This document shows positions 38,623 to 52,303 of a stretch of DNA of 64,000 nucleotides, one piece after another. A program made the position numbers and the translations under genes. The notes below the pieces were generated by a model that was given only the letters and a program-made list of their open reading frames with translations, made no database searches and was not told the DNA's origin. Source of the stretch: Sphaerosporella brunnea (taxonomy: Eukaryota > Ascomycota > Pezizomycetes > Pezizales > Pyronemataceae); assembly GCA_008704415.1 (NCBI GenBank), contig VXIS01000210.1, forward strand, positions 21,668-85,667, written 5' to 3'. Each line of letters begins with the position of its first letter. Within the stretch, counting starts at the first letter, position 1.

Positions 38623-40968
38623 TTTTGTGTTTTCCGCGAATAACGTGCGGAATAACAATCGAGGATCCCCGCAAACTGTGGACTGTAGAGTGCAATGCGA
38701 CACAGACGGAGGCCAGCGGTGGCAATTTAGATGGTAGCGGTGGCAGTGGCAGGTATTGGCGAGCCACTGCTGAAAATTTCGAGTCTACAGGCACCCGCAA
38801 CATTCCGTCTGACCTGGCCGTTCTCTGAGAACCAGCTGCCAATCAGCAATCCATCCAGACCTATTTTCGTCACTCCGCGGACTTCACTGGGTATCACTCG
38901 GTGCCAACCCCCATAGCTCCGACACCGGCTCAGTAACTTTGAGCTTGGAGTACTCGGTGGCCACAATTGATGCTGGTGGGTGCGGTTGTGGCTGCTTTGG
39001 GTTGAATTGGGTTGAGGTGGGAGATGAGCGAATGGTCATGTGGTGACCACGAAAAAATAACAGACGGAGACCCCCTAGCGACAGGTAACGTCCACTCATT
39101 TCTCGCTACAGTAGAGTAAACCTAGATTTATTACAGAGAGGATAAGATAAAGAAAGTAGGAAGCGTGGCAGTAAGGAAGCTGTTCGAGTGCGGACAGATG
39201 ACCGAGTGATAAAGCGTGGATTAGTGAAGGACTTCTATCTGACCACGACGACAATTATAAAGAAGGGTTATTTGAGGGTTTTGACGATTTGGATGATGCG
39301 CAGGAACATTAGGCATTTTGCACTGAACATACCCAATTTGCATGGCAGCAGATCGGTTGAATAAACTCCCCCATGATTCATGATACCCACCCCCGGGCGT
39401 TCCTTGCCCATCAACCAACCTTCCTCCTGCTATCAGACAGCTCATATATTGCTCGAGCTTGCCAAACGGTCGACGTCGTTAACACTTTGCTGTTTATAGC
39501 TAGAAGGATGGAATCATCCTCATCAGGTTGTGAAGGACTTGGAATTGCCCTTACTGGCAAGGCAGGAAAAAACAACACTGTGCACGGACTCTTGATTCAC
39601 TAGATGTTGCTCAGCGTATACGGATGGCCTCAGGAATAAGATATGCCACAGAAAGCCAGGGGAAATAAGACGGAAACTGGCGCTTGGTTTATCACACTGG
39701 AGTAATAAACCGGCTCGTCACTTCGCTCAAGAATTATCACTTACATAAATCCCCGAAGGTATCTTTCCAGAGAGTCAACTAATCACATCAACTCGGTTCA
39801 TACCTCCGGTGGTCGGAATCCACGGCACATGAATCGCAACCGATGCCTTCTGTTAAGAAGAAGAAGCTCCACTAGCAGACATCGAAAAGGTGTCGGTGCC
39901 AGTACCTGGGATCAGCAACCTCCCACAGAAGCGCCGAAGCCGGAAAAGTCCTGAACAGAGCCAATGGATGCAGCCTACTACGGAATCCAACCCCTTGGCC
40001 TGTCTTCTCTCTGTTTGTGCATATGATGACCGAGCCACCCGATATATATTAGACTTGTATCTCGATACTGAATTAACTCCTCACCGATGATCATGATGGG
40101 CATCTAAATCCTCCGCATCCAATGCAATTGTGAACTTGAGCGGCTCCGGATCCGTGGGGCTCACCGGTTGCCCCTTCCTCACAAGTTTGCCATGCTTCTC
40201 GAAAACACTTCCAGTTCTTTGGGAATGACGCTCATCTCCTTATATAAGCATCTTTGCCGCAGGCATACGTCGTTTCGTGATAGTAGGCTGAAATCGTAAC
40301 GCAGCTTCACAAATCAAAAACACCCCCCACGAGCAACTTGAAAACAATGCCATCTCAAAAAGCCCAAGCCTGAGATGTGGTGCGCGTGACTACCGGCATT
40401 AAGCTTTTTCTGCACTCCAGCTGGTGCTGCTGCTGCTTCGCTGCTACCGCCGCAGGGAGATGCAGAACTCGTCGCTGTGGTGTTGGTGAAGTTTATGGAT
40501 CGCTGTGGAGGTGCATGTCCTTGCCTAACAGGCTGGCGGGTGGCGCTGACATGCTGTGGTCGGGGGTGTTGTGATAGTTGTGGTGGCAGGCATGCCAGCG
40601 GTTAGTCAGCCTCCCCAGTGCCGAACCCCACCACATCGATTCCCGCGATCATCCCTCCCGCATCTCCTCCCGGGGTTGTGAAGTGGGGGCACGTTGCAGG
40701 GCGTCACCCGCGATCCAGAGGTCTCCGTCCGCTATTCTTTTCGCTGTCACCTCAATGGACTTCGCGCCGAGCGGTCCCTTATTTTTGAGGGAACGGCCAG
40801 TTCTGGATCGGCTGTTGGCGAACCGTAAGCGGGCTCGGCGACCAGCCACTTGCACCTGCCATCCGTCGATCAAAAGCGTCGCCAGATCCCCGTCCGGTCA
40901 AAGCTGGCTACAGCAATCCCCGCAATCCCGCAATCCCGCAATCCCGCAACCCCACCATCACATCAGCC

Positions 40969-41544
40969 ATGTACAAAACCCTCCTGCGCCGCCCCGTCAG
41001 CACGCTTCTCGCCACCACGACCACGACCACCACGACCTCCGCCACGGCCCGCCGAATCCGCGCAAGAATGTCCACCACCACCACCACCACCACCACCACC
41101 ACCACCAGCAGCGGCGATCAAAAGTGGGAATGGCTCTGCATCCTGCCCGACTTCCCAGGAGTGCACGAGAAGCGGCTCGAAGTGCGTCCGTTGCATTTTG
41201 CGGGCATCCAGGCACTGGTTGAGGAGGGATTCCTGACCTGGGGCGGTGAGTTTTTTTTTTTTTTTTCCCCTTCTGTTGATTCTTCCCCCTCCCCCTCCCC
41301 CCCCCCCTTTCGCTGCTGACGCGATTTCGTAGGCGCTGCCCTCAATGATCTCCCCAGTGACGCCAACGACGCGAAAACCTTCAGCTTCCACGGAAGCGTC
41401 TTGACCGTGGTTGGGACGCGCAAGGAGGAGGTATTGGCGAAGCTGAAGGAGGACCCGTATGCGAAGGCCGGTGTGTGGGATATGGAAAAGGCGCAGATTA
41501 TGCCGTACAAGTGTGCGGTGAGGGAACCGTTGAAGCCGTTGTGA
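40969..41544 (+). CDS. YCII-related domain protein, probably mitochondrial
   Basis: Exons 40969-41245 and 41333-41544 (87-nt intron, GTGAG donor, CTGAC branch, GTAG acceptor) give 162 aa. The N-terminal 35 residues ('YKTLLRRPVSTLLA') are basic and Ser/Thr-rich like a mitochondrial presequence. A Thr run encoded by an ACC repeat follows. Residues about 50-160 match the fungal YCII family: 'WEWLCILPDFPGVHEKRLEV', 'PLHFAGIQALVEEGFLTWGG', 'FHGSVLTVVGTRKEEVLAKL', 'AGVWDMEKAQIMPYKCAVR'. YCII proteins are small alpha/beta dimers with a conserved His (here in 'RPLHFAG'); their reactions are mostly undefined. The intron contains long T and C runs. Confidence 0.85.
41068..41107 (+). repeat. ACC/CAC trinucleotide microsatellite inside the YCII gene
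   Basis: About 13 CAC/ACC units encode a poly-Thr tract in the first exon. Length variation here would change the protein without breaking the frame. Confidence 0.8.
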
Positions 41545-44465: not shown

Positions 44466-44632
44466 TGTGAACCCGGAACGCTCAAGAGGCGTGGGGATCA
44501 CGAAAGCGTAAGAAGCTGTGAAGATGAAGAAGTGTATTAAGGATGATGAGCAAACTCTCTGTCTCCGAGCAACTTTATCTAACACCCCTGTCCACATGTA
44601 AACCCTAACCTGCTTAGTCACCGGTTGTGACA
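44466..44632 (-). repeat. 3' LTR
   Basis: Begins TGTGAACCCGG and ends GGTTGTGACA on the plus strand; no difference from the other LTR was found by eye. Confidence 0.93.
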
Positions 44633-44645
44633 TCTCCCCCCGTTC
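44633..44645 (-). promoter_or_regulatory. Polypurine tract
   Basis: On the minus strand the sequence GAACGGGGGGAGA lies one base from the 3' LTR, the expected site for plus-strand priming. Confidence 0.7.
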
Positions 44646-44818
44646 TAACAAAGAGCTCTCCCGAGCGTCGCAAAACTATCGTCTAGTAAATCCACAGCAA
44701 CTACTGTCCTTCAATCCGCCTGCAAATCTCAATGTAAACGCAAACCATCAATACATGCAATCGTGTATGAGATAGTAAACCACAAGAATCAGAAACTTTT
44801 CAAACGCGATATCCTCCG

Positions 44819-47800
44819 CTAACCCGCGGTCCCTGTCCTGCCATCCTGCCTATCATGCTTTCCTTCTGCGCCACCCGCCGTACCGGAAGAGGATCCTCGC
44901 TCCGCCGGGGTTGTGTACCGCGCTCTCGACAACGGGTCCACCATCTGTATCAGCTTTCCCGGCCGGTATACGACGTCCATGTTGTCCAAATATGGCTGCA
45001 GCAGCATGCGGTATTTGTCGAGGCGCTTCGACATCTTCACGTTCGGCGCCGCCTGGAGTACATCGCGCGTCGACTCGTGATCGGTAAACACCGTGAAAGA
45101 GTTACCTTCCAAGTACAGGGAGAGTTTGTTCACTGCCCAGTATAGGCAAGCCAGTTCCCGTTCCGTGGATTCGTATGAAGGTTCCCCCCCTGTCGTCTGG
45201 CGGGCGATATAGAGGATTGGGCGCTCCAGCGTTTCCCCCGGCCGAGGCTTGCGGGACTCGAATGGTTCGTCTACGCCTCGTCGGGCCGTCGGTGTCGTCA
45301 CGTGGACCTGGGGTTTCTCTTTATAGACGTTAAGCGCGTGGCGATCAACGGCGTCTTCCGGAATCCAGCGGGGGTTCCGGTTGTCTCCCAATGATACCTT
45401 GTAGCGTGTACCATAGCGTGTAGTGCGGTGGTCGAGGATTTCGTAGGGTGCCTGGATAGCTTCGAGAAAAGAATTGCGTTCCTCGAAGTCGTGTAGGAGC
45501 TCCGCTGGTGGATTCAGGTTCCATGTATCTGAAGCTGGATCGTCGCCACGTCGTAACCGGTACTCCATCTGACCAGGTCGACGACTGGACATCCGGGAGT
45601 CGACTATCCGCAGTATTGAAGCGGTCGCGGCGTAGCGGTCGAATGGGTCCTTTGCCGGATCCTGAGCCTTTTTGACATGCTGTACACTGACGATGGGGTG
45701 GATGTTGAGATTCGAGGGGATATCCAATTCCACGCTTCTCCCACCGGAATGGACGCCAATTACGCGGAAAGGTGGCAGTTTCTGTTGGCTTAGCTTATTC
45801 CGTTTGACAGTCGAAACCGGGTGTAAGTCTAGCCGGATGGAGACGAAGTCTCCGACGGCGATGTTCGGGAGCTCAGAATGGCGCCGATCGTAATAGGCTT
45901 TCTGAGCCGAAAGAGCCTTTATGATTGCCTGTTGGGCGTCTTGGAGCCTTGCGGACACACCATCCAGGAACTCCTCGGCGTGCTCATTGCGATCGTCGTC
46001 TTCCTCTGTGGGTGGAGCAGGGTGCAGGAGCCGTTCCATCGGTTCCATGGGGTTTGCGTAGAGGAGCTCATTCGGACTGAATCCGGTCCCAGGGTGCTCC
46101 GCCGTATTGTATGCGAGCTGAATCAGTCCCAGGTACCGATGCCAGTTGTTCTGGCGTTGATTGACGTAGGCTCGGAGCGCGATTTCCAACGTTTGGTTTG
46201 CCCGCTCCGCTGCTCCATCTGCCTGGGCGTGATACGCCGCTGTCTTCCGATGATCGAAACCTAGCCGCGCGGCCAGCGACCTCCAAAAAGACCTGATAAG
46301 TCGGGGGTCCCGGTCGGTGATGAATTTCAGAGGTAAAAATCCCCGGGACACGACATGTTCGAAAAACGTGTCAGCGAGGGATGCCGCGGTGAAATCGGAC
46401 GTTGTTGGAGCGAATATCACAGCCTTGGTATATCGGTCCACCACAGTCAGTACCGCGTCGTAACCTCCGCTTTTCGGTAGTCCAACAATGAGATCCATGT
46501 TGACAGACTCAAATGCCTTCGGTATCCGTCCGTACGGTGGGTCAATTGAAAGTAGCGATCCAAACGGCCGGCGCCTGGAGGTCTTATTCATTCCACATTC
46601 CCGGCAATGTCTGACGTAGTCTGCAACGATAGTCGATAGGCCGGGCCGGTAATAGGTAGCAGTCACTCGATCGTACGTCTTGTCCACGCCGAAATGACCC
46701 AGTGCATCATGTGCTAATGCTAAGCATTCAGCAATCATGTCCTTGGGCAAACACACCCTATCCCCGTAAGAGGTTCTGTAGTGGAGTGTCCCATCACTCA
46801 GAAGCGTATATCCGACTGTCGATGGGCTTGCTTTTTTATTCTGAAGTTGGTGGTACACCAAACGGAATGCAGGATCGCCGCCATAGCTCGCTTCCCAGTC
46901 TCGTACGGCTGTGGAATGGAAATTATGCATCGAGTCGACTGAGTCCGTTTCGTAGTCCTCTTCAGTCCATCGCTGCATAAGGACTGCGCCGAAGGCCTCC
47001 GCGGAAGCGTCGGTATACAATACGAAAGGTCTTCCATCAAACTTCGGGTGTGCCAGGATGGGTGCCGAGCATAACCTCTTCTTCAGTTCCTCGAACGCCG
47101 CTTGTGCGCCGTCTGACCACGCAATTGGTCTCTTGGAATTGTAATCTACGCCGGACTGCGTGGAGCGTTTCAAAAGCTCGAGGGGGCGTGCGATCTTGGG
47201 GTAGTTCCGAATGAAGCCACGGTAGTATCCGAACATCCCGAGAAGCCGGTAGAGCTCTCCCAGAGTCTGCGGTGCCGCCAGATCCGTGATTGCCTTTACC
47301 TTGTCTTCGAGCGTAAACATGCCGTACCGACCGAGGCCGAGACCCAGCAGTCGTAACTCAGAGAACGCGAAACGACATTTCTCCTTGCTGAACATCAATC
47401 CTGCGTCTCTGCACGAAGCGAAAAGACGTCGGAGGTGAGCGATGTGTTGTTCCCAAGTGTCCGAAAAGACCAGAACATCGTCGATGTAGCAAAGGGCCGC
47501 TTCCCAACGTAAAGATCCTAGGATCGTATCCATCATCCTTTGGAATTGTGCCGGAGCGTTGTGCAGACCAAACGGCATGCGCTTGAATTGGAACAGGCCT
47601 CGGTGGGTGATGAAAGCCGTCTTGTATCGATCCTGCTCTGCAATTTCCACCTGATGGTACCCTTTGACCGCGTCTAACGCGCTGAAAAATCTCTTCCCTG
47701 CGAGCGAGGAGAATATGTAGTCGGAGCGTAGCATTGGGTAACAGTCCTTAATCGTGACTTTGTTCAGCTCCCGGAAATCGACGCAGAAACGCCACTTGTT

Positions 47801-49726
47801 GTTCTGCCACACCAGGACCACCGCCGAGGCGGTCGGTGAGTTGGACCGCTCGATGACGTCCCAATCCTCCATCTGTGACAGTGCTTGGTCGACCACCGCG
47901 CGTTTGGCCGGCCCAATTGGACGGAGTCTAGCCGCCGGGGGAAGCTCGCCATCCACGGTCTTGATGGTGGCAGCCACAGCCTTAACTTGTCCGATCGTCC
48001 GTCCGTCACTGAAAACATCATTGAACTCCGACAGGAGATGCAGGAGTTCCGAAGCCTGCGCTGGGTTGAGGTCCTCCGACATCGTCCATGATACCGTTTG
48101 GCCATCGTCCACTGGCAAGCTCGGAAACGCTACGTCAGCGTCTTCCAAGTGGTTCTCCGGGAATTGAGCACCAGCCACACGTTTCTCCGCGGTGGAGGCG
48201 ATCAATCGGATGGTGGTCTCTGATAGGGATCGTTTACGTGGGACCTCTCGTCCCAGTGTATCGAAGCGTAAATCGTCTTCATAGGTATATTGATCCGTAT
48301 GTGCGGTGGCGCCGGTGATGTGGAAAATTGTCAACTCGTGGATTTCCTTCTCCAGAAGTTCCTCCATGGCGACGGTCGCTGGGGCTTTCAACCCGATCGA
48401 GGGTAGGCCGGGTTGCCGAGGATGGATCAGATCGTCCCATCTAACAATATGCGAGGTAGCCGAACCGACCGCACCGAATAAAACTGCCTCAGCCTCGCCC
48501 AGAATCTGACGTTTCTCAATACGCATAGGGTGCTCTGAGTGGTTGGAGAACATAATGAAGCGCGTCTCGCTGTCGATTATCGCTCGCGGCATCTGCGGCG
48601 CTGTCGGGATCGACAATTCCGCCGTCAGGTAAGGAGTGAAGATATAGTCCGTTCCCTCCATACACGCTGTATGCACTGGGATTGGGACCGTCGAGCGTCC
48701 TGGAACCACCAAGCGTTTCTCAGAGAAAACCTTCACCGACTGAAACTTAGGCGCTGCCGTCGAAAAAAGGGGAAACGACAGGCCGCCGATGTTGCCTTGC
48801 ATCCTGCTCGTCATGATGTCGATCCCGTAGTCGCGGATCGCATCCAGACCAATCAGGAGACCTGGGGCGAAAGATTCCAAGACGTGTAGTTCGACGTCGA
48901 ATTCTGCGAGAATTCGCTCGCTCGTTGTGTCGTCATGGCATTTAAGCCAGACCGGAATTACTGTGAAACCGATCGTTGTAGTCTCGCCTACGCCCGAAAT
49001 CTTCTTTTGCGTAGGGAAAATCGAACTGTCTGGATAGTACTTGTGCAGGAGGTCCTTGTCGATGAGGCCGACGTTGGAACACACATCCGTGAGCCCTGGG
49101 ACTTCGTTCGACGCGGATGATGCCGAGCCTAGGCGAAACTTTGCCGCCAGTGGTGAGCATCGTAGATAGCTTTTACCATTTCCAGCCAGTTGGTGCGGGC
49201 GCTCCAATCGCCGTACCTGGATCTGATCAGCGTCCTGCTTGGAATTGGGGGAAGGTCGACTTCCCCTGGTGTACCCCTGGGCCAGTCCACTCGGGGGGTT
49301 ACCCCAGCTGCTGCCAGCCACAGGGGAAGTGGATTCGTCCTCGTCCGTACCGCCTCGACCTCTAACCTTGTGCCTACTCTGTTTTCCCTCGCCTCCGATC
49401 CACCAGGTGTCTCGCGAAAATTCGTCTTCTGTCCTTCGGAGTCCTTCCAGATCAATCGGACTTTGCAGAATTTTGTTGGTCGTTTTCATTCGGGACTTCT
49501 TCACATTTGGTCCGAACTTCTCAGGATCCCGGCGAGGGTTGATCGTGTGGGATGCATCGTGTGAATTTAGCCGCGCAGGGACAGTCTGTGTTATATCAGC
49601 TTCGATACGGGACGTGGCATCGGGTTGACTTCCCCGTGTCAACCCCCGGGCCAGACTACTCGCCGGGTCACGGCAGCTGCTGCCAGCCACGGGGGTGGGA
49701 TGGGTCTCCTCCTCTTCCTCTTTCAT
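44819..49726 (-). CDS. pol: Ty3/gypsy Pol polyprotein with RNase H split around integrase
   Basis: A single 1,635-codon frame. Order: linker with an internal duplication (1-170); aspartic-protease-like region (209-305) whose active-site motif reads D214-V-C-S instead of DTG-S/A; reverse transcriptase (about 590-800) with FCVDF and YIDD (747-750); first RNase H strands 'FVLYTDASAEAFGAVLMQ' (901-918); integrase with zinc finger H1006/H1011/C1041/C1044 and catalytic D1078, D1138, E1174 (35 residues between the last two); a chromodomain-like segment (about 1428-1461, 'RYKVSLGDNRNPRWIPEDAV'); then the remaining RNase H, 'RPILYIARQ', 'YESTERELACLYWAV', 'FTVFTDHEST' and 'DPLSRARY' (1502-1604). RNase H is thus in two pieces about 580 residues apart. 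The frame is -1 relative to gag and stays open upstream through the gag stop, so frameshifting may produce it. Confidence 0.9.
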   Translation of the reverse strand: MKEEEEETHPTPVAGSSCRDPASSLARGLTRGSQPDATSRIEADITQTVPARLNSHDASHTINPRRDPEKFGPNVKKSRMKTTNKILQSPIDLEGLRRTEDEFSRDTWWIGGEGKQSRHKVRGRGGTDEDESTSPVAGSSWGNPPSGLAQGYTRGSRPSPNSKQDADQIQVRRLERPHQLAGNGKSYLRCSPLAAKFRLGSASSASNEVPGLTDVCSNVGLIDKDLLHKYYPDSSIFPTQKKISGVGETTTIGFTVIPVWLKCHDDTTSERILAEFDVELHVLESFAPGLLIGLDAIRDYGIDIMTSRMQGNIGGLSFPLFSTAAPKFQSVKVFSEKRLVVPGRSTVPIPVHTACMEGTDYIFTPYLTAELSIPTAPQMPRAIIDSETRFIMFSNHSEHPMRIEKRQILGEAEAVLFGAVGSATSHIVRWDDLIHPRQPGLPSIGLKAPATVAMEELLEKEIHELTIFHITGATAHTDQYTYEDDLRFDTLGREVPRKRSLSETTIRLIASTAEKRVAGAQFPENHLEDADVAFPSLPVDDGQTVSWTMSEDLNPAQASELLHLLSEFNDVFSDGRTIGQVKAVAATIKTVDGELPPAARLRPIGPAKRAVVDQALSQMEDWDVIERSNSPTASAVVLVWQNNKWRFCVDFRELNKVTIKDCYPMLRSDYIFSSLAGKRFFSALDAVKGYHQVEIAEQDRYKTAFITHRGLFQFKRMPFGLHNAPAQFQRMMDTILGSLRWEAALCYIDDVLVFSDTWEQHIAHLRRLFASCRDAGLMFSKEKCRFAFSELRLLGLGLGRYGMFTLEDKVKAITDLAAPQTLGELYRLLGMFGYYRGFIRNYPKIARPLELLKRSTQSGVDYNSKRPIAWSDGAQAAFEELKKRLCSAPILAHPKFDGRPFVLYTDASAEAFGAVLMQRWTEEDYETDSVDSMHNFHSTAVRDWEASYGGDPAFRLVYHQLQNKKASPSTVGYTLLSDGTLHYRTSYGDRVCLPKDMIAECLALAHDALGHFGVDKTYDRVTATYYRPGLSTIVADYVRHCRECGMNKTSRRRPFGSLLSIDPPYGRIPKAFESVNMDLIVGLPKSGGYDAVLTVVDRYTKAVIFAPTTSDFTAASLADTFFEHVVSRGFLPLKFITDRDPRLIRSFWRSLAARLGFDHRKTAAYHAQADGAAERANQTLEIALRAYVNQRQNNWHRYLGLIQLAYNTAEHPGTGFSPNELLYANPMEPMERLLHPAPPTEEDDDRNEHAEEFLDGVSARLQDAQQAIIKALSAQKAYYDRRHSELPNIAVGDFVSIRLDLHPVSTVKRNKLSQQKLPPFRVIGVHSGGRSVELDIPSNLNIHPIVSVQHVKKAQDPAKDPFDRYAATASILRIVDSRMSSRRPGQMEYRLRRGDDPASDTWNLNPPAELLHDFEERNSFLEAIQAPYEILDHRTTRYGTRYKVSLGDNRNPRWIPEDAVDRHALNVYKEKPQVHVTTPTARRGVDEPFESRKPRPGETLERPILYIARQTTGGEPSYESTERELACLYWAVNKLSLYLEGNSFTVFTDHESTRDVLQAAPNVKMSKRLDKYRMLLQPYLDNMDVVYRPGKLIQMVDPLSRARYTTPAERGSSSGTAGGAEGKHDRQDGRTGTAG

Positions 49727-49803
49727 CCGGGACTTCTTGCCGTCAGGTCCGTACTTATCCGGGATCTGACGAGGGGTTTCGTGTTGGGGATCGGTAGCCC
49801 GAT

Positions 49804-51951
49804 CTACTGATCCCCGAGGCCATTTCCCGCCTCCGATTCGTCCCGATCGTCATCCTCATGGTAGAGGACAGTCATATGGGAGGCATTCGCGTGTTGAAAA
49901 TTGTACGAAGTAAGGTTACCGGACTCACTGCGATAGAGCTGGACTTCCAGCTTGTCTCCCGGATCCTCAACGTCTCCGATGTGCGTCCGCGGCTTGGTGT
50001 TGTAGTTACACTCAAAACTGAAATGCATCTGGTTCGGCTTTCCATTCTTCTCGCATACGCTGCATGCGTGTTTGATAAAAACAGGCTTCCCCTGGTAATT
50101 CAGGTACGATCGCACCATTCTTCCGTTCTCCGGGTTGAGCCGGTTCTGAATGGTAGATTTTCGGTCCTGGCCGGTACGGTCGATCGCTTTGCCTTTGTCC
50201 TTCGAGGGGCGTGAAGCACTCGGACCGGTCTCAGGGTTTCCGAACTGATTCCCGAGGAACCGTCCCGTCGCTTTCGGCTCGTATTGCATAGGGGCAGCAG
50301 CCGGAACAAAACTTTCGGGGGAAAAGATCCTTCCAGGGGACCGCGTGACAGCGGGCGAAGTGCGGTCGTAATCCATCAGTTCGCTGATAAAGCCGTCTAT
50401 GCTGGACTTCTCCTTGCAAAACCGTACGACCTCGGTGTCCATTACTGCCTTCATTTTCAGGATGATATTTGCCTCCTCGGATCCCTCGTAAGCGCGTTTC
50501 AGTAGTCTATACTTGCGGATGCCGAAGGCTGCCCAGCTGTCCCCGTGGGGTTTGCGATATGAGTCGGCCTCGAATTGCATTACACCGAGATCCGGCTTAA
50601 ACCGTGCTCGAAGCAGCGTCTTGAAGCGGTCCCAACAGCCTTCACCGGTCGTCACAAAGAGGTGCACCTCGGAAGGCTTGGTGAGGTACCAATCCCTCAT
50701 CGGATCTCCGACGGCGAAACAGCGGTGAAGGATATGTGGGCACACCGCCAGTTCTCCAAACGAGGTGACGATGTGATCAATCTGTGAAATCCACTCTTCC
50801 AAATCATCGCCGAACAGGATACTCGGAAGATCACTGGGATTAAACCTGGGTTTCGCCGGGCCGCTACCAGCCGTCATAGCCACTGGTGCCATGTAGATGC
50901 TGGTGGGGCTCAGCGGAGTTGTGGGGCCCGTCCACCCACCAGACCGTATCTGGTTGCGTTCCTCATCGATAGCAGCCCTCTTGACATCCATATTGTGGAG
51001 TTCCGCACGTAGGGCTCTATCCCGAACCTCTGGATCATCCGCTCTGTTCTCTCGTTGCAGCTCCAGTCGAATAAGCTGTTTGATCTGTGCTAGAAGTGTG
51101 GCGTTTGAGTCGTTGGAAGGCGTGTTTCCAGTGTCCGACGAGCCTGCTCCGCCAGACGTGCGGCCCGATCCGGATGGAGCGGCTGAGCTGGAAGATCCCG
51201 CAGCAGGTATTGTAGAGTCTTTGTTATCTGATGAAGGGGGCGAGGAAGGCGGCGAAGATAGGGGGCTCGATTGAGGTTCTCGGAAGCGTTCGGTGTTCCA
51301 CTGGTCGAGTAGGAGCTGTTCCTGCTCCCGGCGAGCAGCTTCGAGAAGCCAAGATTTGCTTCTGGTTTCTGGTGCCACGTCTACCAAGAAACGTGCGAAC
51401 GCGAATGGGAGAACGAGGGCCTGCTTCAAGATCCTAGCACCAACACAAAGAGCCTCCCAGGATGGGACGAAATTCCAAGTGCTGGTTGAGTCACCCGGAG
51501 TCGGCTCGATGAGGCGTTTTTGACGGGAAAGGGGTCGCGGGGGTGAGTCTGGCTCCTCTACTTCGTACGCTTGCAGAGTGGTAGTCTCGGGATTGAGGAC
51601 TTCACCCAGACGCTGTAAAGCTGTAAAGGTTTCTTCTGATTGCTGCTTCCGGCGAGGAGAAGGGAAAGAAGTCTGGCCGAAGACAACCGGAAGTCCTACG
51701 TCGAAGCTTTGTCGCACCGCTAGTTGGTTGTGCTCAGTGGACTGAGTTTCCGGTTCTCTCTGGAAACGGGTTCCGAGACCTAATTTTCGACGGCAGGACT
51801 TCTGATTCCAATACTTGCCGTCGAGATCGGACGTAAGTCTCTCGAGCCGGCGCTTTTTTGCTGTCCCTGGATTTGTGTTAGGTTCCTTGATTACTCGTTT
51901 ATGAGAGACATCCATCAGCGGCCTGATAACAGGCCGCGAAGAAAAGAACAC
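49804..51951 (-). CDS. gag: Ty3/gypsy Gag protein
   Basis: 715 codons. The N-terminal half is basic and Ser/Pro-rich with an EQLLLDQW-type helix. The capsid-like retrotransposon gag domain spans roughly residues 370-530 ('LFGDDLEEWISQIDHIVTSF', 'WDRFKTLLRARFKPD', 'AFGIRKYRLLKRAYEG'). Near the C-terminus 'CSVCEKNGKPNQMHFSFEC' has C-x2-C..H-x4-C spacing, a non-standard zinc knuckle. It should form the virus-like particle and bind the element RNA. The stop at 49804-49806 lies 77 bases before the pol ATG. Confidence 0.88.
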   Translation of the reverse strand: MFFSSRPVIRPLMDVSHKRVIKEPNTNPGTAKKRRLERLTSDLDGKYWNQKSCRRKLGLGTRFQREPETQSTEHNQLAVRQSFDVGLPVVFGQTSFPSPRRKQQSEETFTALQRLGEVLNPETTTLQAYEVEEPDSPPRPLSRQKRLIEPTPGDSTSTWNFVPSWEALCVGARILKQALVLPFAFARFLVDVAPETRSKSWLLEAARREQEQLLLDQWNTERFREPQSSPLSSPPSSPPSSDNKDSTIPAAGSSSSAAPSGSGRTSGGAGSSDTGNTPSNDSNATLLAQIKQLIRLELQRENRADDPEVRDRALRAELHNMDVKRAAIDEERNQIRSGGWTGPTTPLSPTSIYMAPVAMTAGSGPAKPRFNPSDLPSILFGDDLEEWISQIDHIVTSFGELAVCPHILHRCFAVGDPMRDWYLTKPSEVHLFVTTGEGCWDRFKTLLRARFKPDLGVMQFEADSYRKPHGDSWAAFGIRKYRLLKRAYEGSEEANIILKMKAVMDTEVVRFCKEKSSIDGFISELMDYDRTSPAVTRSPGRIFSPESFVPAAAPMQYEPKATGRFLGNQFGNPETGPSASRPSKDKGKAIDRTGQDRKSTIQNRLNPENGRMVRSYLNYQGKPVFIKHACSVCEKNGKPNQMHFSFECNYNTKPRTHIGDVEDPGDKLEVQLYRSESGNLTSYNFQHANASHMTVLYHEDDDRDESEAGNGLGDQ

Positions 51952-52118
51952 TTAGCAAGAACTTGATAAGCTCTGAGCAGAGCAGCGGGTTATTGCCGGA
52001 AACGCAGCGGGATTGATGCTCAGGGCTTGGGAGATGCAGCGGGTCGAGTGATGGGGAGGGTTCGAGCGGGAAAGAAACGAAAAACAGAAGGAAAAACGGA
52101 GCGTGGTGCGGAGGTTTC

Positions 52119-52136
52119 ACTGTCCTTGACGCCAGA
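52119..52136 (-). promoter_or_regulatory. Presumed primer-binding site region
   Basis: On the minus strand TCTGGCGTCAAGGACAG follows the 5' LTR directly, where the primer binds. I cannot assign the tRNA; self-priming is also possible. Confidence 0.45.
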
Positions 52137-52303
52137 TGTGAACCCGGAACGCTCAAGAGGCGTGGGGATCACGAAAGCGTAAGAAGCTGTGAAGATGAAG
52201 AAGTGTATTAAGGATGATGAGCAAACTCTCTGTCTCCGAGCAACTTTATCTAACACCCCTGTCCACATGTAAACCCTAACCTGCTTAGTCACCGGTTGTG
52301 ACA
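52137..52303 (-). repeat. 5' LTR
   Basis: 167 bp, TG..CA, no difference from the 3' LTR seen. The promoter for element transcription (minus strand) should lie here. Confidence 0.93.

Follow-up and report, generated by a model that had tools for sequence, protein, structure and literature searches.

LTR retrotransposons of the Ty3/gypsy type are recognized by long terminal repeats (LTRs) with TG...CA ends around gag and pol, a Ty3/gypsy reverse transcriptase (RT), the domain order PR-RT-RNase H-IN, and a primer-binding site that matches a tRNA and adjoins the 5′ LTR. The RT-RNase H-IN order counts as one of their defining traits, and RNase H is regarded as one contiguous block behind RT; a chromodomain at the C terminus of integrase (IN) marks the chromoviruses, DTG or DSG is the active-site motif of retropepsins, and in some elements with two RNase H domains the extra one lies behind integrase. 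A survey of fungal LTR elements states, in the portion available, that Ty3/gypsy pol usually ends with integrase (PMC3248453). The dual RNase H elements (Tat, Chronos, Archon, Odin and the retroviruses) have, according to the accessible parts of two reports, gained a second RNase H, and their first has lost residues (PMC5348765, PMC9040795). For Ty3 of Saccharomyces cerevisiae (Metaviridae), the excerpted text gives D358, E401, D426 and D469 as the active-site acids of RNase H (PMC5371799). Excerpts on the P element (PMC7776569) and Hermes (PMC3985635) transposases describe another domain inserted in an RNase H-like catalytic domain, and the Hermes excerpt calls insertions between the first three strands of this fold relatively rare.

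The window analyzed here, a 64,000-nucleotide stretch of a Sphaerosporella brunnea contig (VXIS01000210.1), carries an LTR retrotransposon at window positions 44466–52303 on its minus strand, on which all element features given below lie. Its two 167-bp LTRs (5′ LTR, 52137..52303, TGTCAC...TTCACA; 3′ LTR, 44466..44632, with a purine-rich tract just before it) form a direct repeat of 100% identity that encloses gag and pol. C runs flank the LTRs on both sides and are compatible with a short target duplication, which the run makes ambiguous. As read from the letters, a TGGCGTCAAGGACAGTG stretch begins 2 nt past the inner end of the 5′ LTR; Rfam, at the gathering threshold, gave no match in the element and one tRNA elsewhere in the window. 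The gag-like ORF (49804..51951, 715 aa, from the ORF listing) matched zero Pfam families above cut-off. The pol ORF (44819..49726) encodes 1635 aa without an internal stop, and frame translation places the pol frame at −1 relative to gag; the heptamer GGGAAAT at 49822..49828, located inside the gag/pol overlap by the same translation and a slippery-site pattern scan, is a putative functional slippery site. An earlier reading of the sequence alone (the sequence-only reading) had reported an uninterrupted pol frame and apparently identical LTRs, and both descriptions hold. Near the N terminus of pol a 73-bp repeat (81%; 49254–49326 and 49623–49695) codes for a TPVAGSS..GLAQGYTRGS-like motif, which is also present in relatives.

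Within pol, Pfam detected RVT_1, RT_RNaseH_2, Integrase_H2C2, rve, SH3_Tf2-1 and RT_RNaseH, in that order; RT precedes integrase as in other Ty3/gypsy elements, but no whole RNase H stands before integrase. The RT (47162..47809, residues 640–855 by a clade HMM; RVT_1 at 643–796, E 8.3e-32) is of the Ty3/gypsy type, the top PDB sequence match of residues 596–925, which span RT and the first RNase H piece, being Ty3 4ol8 (E 6.1e-59). This first piece (46961..47119, residues 870–922) comprises strands 1 and 2 with D906 and covers positions 1–52 of the 100 in the RT_RNaseH_2 profile. The second piece (44915..45229, residues 1500–1604) runs from strand 3 to the end of the domain and holds E1524, D1549 and D1597, with the Pfam family RT_RNaseH matching residues 1501–1579 (profile 30–105 of 105). 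A profile built for the second RNase H half had a single match in the window's pol, at 1500–1604, and none between RT and integrase, and Pfam found no second RNase H family in this protein. When aligned with Ty3 (7q5b), RT plus the first piece reached Ty3 residue 904 (E 7.6e-58) and the C-terminal piece started at residue 917 (a weak single-sequence match, E 0.42); relative to Ty3, the two pieces together lack only the loop joining strands 2 and 3, some 12 residues. By our reading of the Ty3 alignments, from which the numbering step derives, D358, E401, D426 and D469 of Ty3 correspond to D906, E1524, D1549 and D1597.

These results confirm that the split RNase H layout of the window's pol is real. 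They bear out, by Pfam and half-domain profiles, the sequence-only reading's placement of the strands with D906 behind RT and of the remainder past integrase, and, by the Ty3 alignment, its placement of the cut at the loop between strands 2 and 3. It had also raised the possibility of a complete RNase H core at residues 800–930, where Pfam and the profiles found none. Its assignment of the catalytic Glu to STERE stands, with the residue now specified as the second E of that motif (E1524) and D1597 added as the fourth acid.

The integrase (45782..46756, residues 991–1315), comprising an H2C2 zinc region and a DDE core, thus lies inside RNase H. Pfam placed Integrase_H2C2 at residues 994–1049, rve at 1073–1166 (below its curated cut-off) and SH3_Tf2-1 at 1292–1354 (also below cut-off). 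The chromodomain-like segment proposed by the sequence-only reading (45302..45445, about residues 1428–1475) is weak here: it aligns with the Pfam Chromo region of the database protein P0010, and precomputed chromodomain matches exist for split proteins such as P0012, P0015 and P0047, but the window's own pol had no Pfam Chromo match at E up to 1. Upstream, alignment and a motif scan suggest that residues 205–330 (48737..49114) are a retropepsin-like region, in which Pfam gave no protease match in the window's pol. LLIGLD is kept there, but DVCSN (residues about 212–216) takes the place of the expected DTG or DSG. Where the motif was matched in the window's branch, it reads D-x-(C/Y/D)-S-N instead of DTG (DTCSN, DPCSN, DLYSN and DPDSN in the window copy's relatives), whereas several Tilletia-branch members have DTGAS.

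Three protein searches, one of them limited to the best 120 of 572 matches, yielded 142 proteins, or 143 with the window's own, which we classed by HMMs for RT, the first RNase H piece (RNase H-N), IN and the second piece (RNase H-C). Among these listed matches, 45 (including the window's) were split, 64 had the ordinary order, 22 were without the C-terminal piece and 12 were incomplete; with 45 of 143 listed proteins sharing it, the layout is beyond chance. The 44 split database proteins listed come from the jgi, lgn, ena and ncbi sources and include proteins named Tilletia indica and T. controversa, and the distance from strand 2 to strand 3 in split proteins is 461 to 668 residues. The 22 proteins without a C-terminal piece end at most 152 residues past the integrase match, short of or roughly at the expected start of the piece, and because their ends fall so near integrase they are no counter-evidence. 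At a looser threshold, six of the 12 incomplete proteins showed the ordinary order, P0069 and the fragment P0046 looked split, and four were undecidable. No intermediate that combines a complete RNase H with a further C-terminal copy is among the 143 listed proteins; the extra RNase H matches that ten of them have at E under 0.05 are short and, with E at or above 0.005, weak. Seven ordinary proteins (P0021, P0079, P0083 and P0086–P0089) carry 56–58 inserted residues at the very strand 2–3 loop that is cut in split elements, compared with at most 21 residues in the remaining 57 ordinary proteins. Named nearby relatives are fungal (Tilletia, Antrodiella), and 11 pattern matches in viral contigs included zero relatives. 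One split gypsy pol, P0013, is labelled as a Rhodoferax MAG and is probably contamination.

The catalytic acids are conserved across the gap. Among the listed split proteins, D906 and E1524 are each present in 45 of 45, D1549 in all 44 rows with a letter (one row has none) and D1597 in 40 of 41 (four rows have none), the exception being P0052, which has E at that position and whose end departs from the family pattern. In the in-genome loci with matches the acids are also kept, except for S at D1549 in the mosaic locus L019. Silent sites are saturated between nine in-genome copies (fourfold identity 0.17–0.45 in the segments counted), and the median dN of RNase H-N (0.111) and RNase H-C (0.068) compares with 0.091 for RT, 0.090 for IN, 0.413 for the linker and 0.232 for the segment from integrase to RNase H-C. 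Median dN/dS, computable for 6 of 36 pairs per piece, was 0.046 for RNase H-N and 0.027 for RNase H-C. Purifying selection acts on both RNase H pieces.

The split proteins form a single clade. In an RT tree of 106 of the 109 split or ordinary proteins (three were left out, their match being too short), 44 split proteins occupied one side of a single branch (support 99/95; 98% of bootstrap trees), and the integrase and RNase H-C trees agreed on this group (support 95 and 98), although the RNase H-C tree rests on few columns and leaves many forks unresolved. The nearest ordinary relatives in the RT tree are chromodomain gypsy elements (P0011, which has a long branch there, P0019, P0079 from Antrodiella, and neighbours). 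P0011 and P0019 are also the closest two ordinary neighbours of the split group in the integrase tree and again in the RNase H-C tree, and the seven insertion-bearing ordinary proteins branch near that group in the RT tree. These relatives differ in having RNase H upstream of integrase, broken at most by the 56–58-residue insertion of those seven. Given this agreement between the integrase and RNase H-C trees, the C-terminal piece seems to be a relocated part of the element's own RNase H rather than a foreign acquisition. The trees are consistent with one origin of the split clade, which is present at least in the window's genome and in Tilletia.

Compared with Ty3, the window's element has the same type of RT and RNase H, the same four acids, a zinc-binding DDE integrase, LTRs, gag and pol; the difference is that RNase H is contiguous between RT and integrase in Ty3, whereas here integrase separates strand 2 from strand 3. 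Like the dual RNase H elements (plant Tat, oomycete Chronos and Archon, retroviruses, Odin), it has extra RNase H sequence in Pol, but those, as far as the cited excerpts go, combine an old degraded domain with a captured complete one, whereas this is one domain halved, its acids kept. Instead of a degraded first and a foreign second domain we found complementary halves and agreeing RNase H-C and integrase trees; halves and tree position rule out a second, captured RNase H and uphold the sequence-only reading's view of one gypsy-type domain in two pieces, unlike the extra RNase H of Tat and oomycete elements. The P element and Hermes transposases, to judge from the excerpts, likewise hold a whole domain inside an RNase H fold that still forms, but as mobile elements they are unrelated to this one. 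In the open-licence literature, to the extent that its text was accessible and with Repbase-type reports outside its scope, we found no description of a gypsy RNase H that is split, bipartite, interrupted or relocated, in agreement with the earlier remark that the layout had not been seen described.

A search of 50.6 Mb in 640 contigs of the same genome found the order RT, RNase H-N, IN, RNase H-C at eight more loci (L009–L016), whose second pieces are 78–91% identical to that of the window element; L017 holds the 3′ part of an element only. A diverged locus, L018 (G000 C636), has the same split order at 39–52% identity in RT, IN and both RNase H pieces (41% in the second piece). It represents a second, distant branch of split elements in this genome, is 71% identical to the metagenome protein P0053, and has one stop in pol. 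L019 (G000 C244) also has the split order and is a mosaic, 98–100% identical to the window element up to the linker and 42–51% from IN onward, being either a recombinant or an assembly junction. Several sibling copies have stops or frame changes, with a stop in the first piece of L015 and in the second piece of L012. Among five comparator gypsy loci, the RNase H-C match fell between RT and integrase in L020, L021 and L024 and behind RT in L023, a stretch without an integrase match, and L022 gave no RNase H-C match. LTR-region matches between window 44466–52303 and L009–L016 are 70–92% identical (80% or more in L010, L011, L013, L014 and L015). RT proteins are 79–91% identical between siblings, yet fourfold silent sites in pol are near random, and few near-identical copies were found in the genome (the counts being lower bounds); one candidate cause is homology-dependent silencing, under which divergence of the DNA would be favoured.

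Two AlphaFold2 models bear on whether the pieces could fold together, as the sequence-only reading had suggested. In the first, from 17 sequences and covering residues 596–1613, the RNase H domain did not form (pLDDT averaged 57.8 and was below 50 in the first RNase H strands); this shallower model was too poor to show a joint fold. In the second, deeper, single-chain model the RNase H domain was predicted to form from both pieces, which supports the suggestion; its pTM was 0.41, it comes without inter-piece error estimates, and cis and trans arrangements are indistinguishable in it. The match list of the second model has two RNase H rows, at ranks 20 and 37, below integrase rows, their ranges giving first and last residue. 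The modelled joint domain may also derive from AlphaFold2's memory of a familiar fold.

We consider it highly probable that an ancestral rearrangement of RNase H left two pieces that form one active domain, most likely within one Pol chain. We infer that a single event moved the segment from strand 3 to the end, with three of the four acids, from behind RT to the C terminus of Pol, behind integrase and the chromodomain-like segment, and that strands 1 and 2, which hold the first catalytic Asp, kept their place after RT. After translation, the two pieces would pack, as modelled, into one RNase H whose D-E-D-D active site is complete; most likely they meet in one Pol chain, from which integrase would loop out as a very large strand 2–3 insertion, and the reassembled RNase H would degrade template RNA, as Ty3 RNase H does. 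A serious though unlikely rival is assembly in trans, in which RNase H-C of one Pol, or a proteolytic C-terminal fragment, completes RNase H-N on another RT. It is serious because Ty3 RT is, in the excerpted account, an asymmetric homodimer that draws its polymerase and RNase H activities from different subunits (PMC5371799), and the canonical DTGAS of several Tilletia-type members means that Pol may be cut there. Against it, the domain is predicted to form in a single-chain model, even if exchange stays compatible with that model, and the loss of the DTG glycine in the window's branch would argue against ordinary cleavage; if the protease of this branch is inactive, Pol may stay uncut, which would favour assembly in cis.

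That the C-terminal piece is a structural or nucleic-acid-binding tail, with host RNase H removing template RNA, seems to us very unlikely. The support for RNase H activity is computational, and retroviruses, Tat and oomycete elements do contain RNase H-like domains that are devoid of catalytic residues; in those the residues have been lost (PMC5348765, in the portion available), whereas here the four acids are nearly invariant over both pieces in proteins down to 26% identity. We give a negligible probability to an assembly error or a rearrangement private to the window copy. The mosaic L019 does show that odd junctions exist in the assembly; nevertheless, eight in-genome copies (78–91%), one diverged copy (41%) and at least 44 database proteins share the layout, and its recurrence in Tilletia-named proteins and separate metagenome contigs as well as in this genome refutes a local rearrangement or misassembly, a possibility that the sequence-only reading had itself raised.

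The clade breaks the Pol-order rule in the middle of a catalytic domain whose active site is still conserved, and it provides a natural means of testing whether reverse transcription requires RT and IN to remain together. It is also a warning that annotation by domain order may misread split elements as truncated. More tentatively, and with somewhat less than even probability, the element could encode an enzyme that is naturally split and has an active site only once the stretch beyond integrase reaches back to RT, Pol in the window's branch perhaps being an uncut RT-IN-RNase H machine; if so, RT and integrase would be obliged to act as one particle, and RNase H would check for full-length Pol. 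Elsewhere in the window, simple repeats at 40850–41391 are read in overlapping ORFs as runs of poly-His, poly-Pro and poly-Gly.
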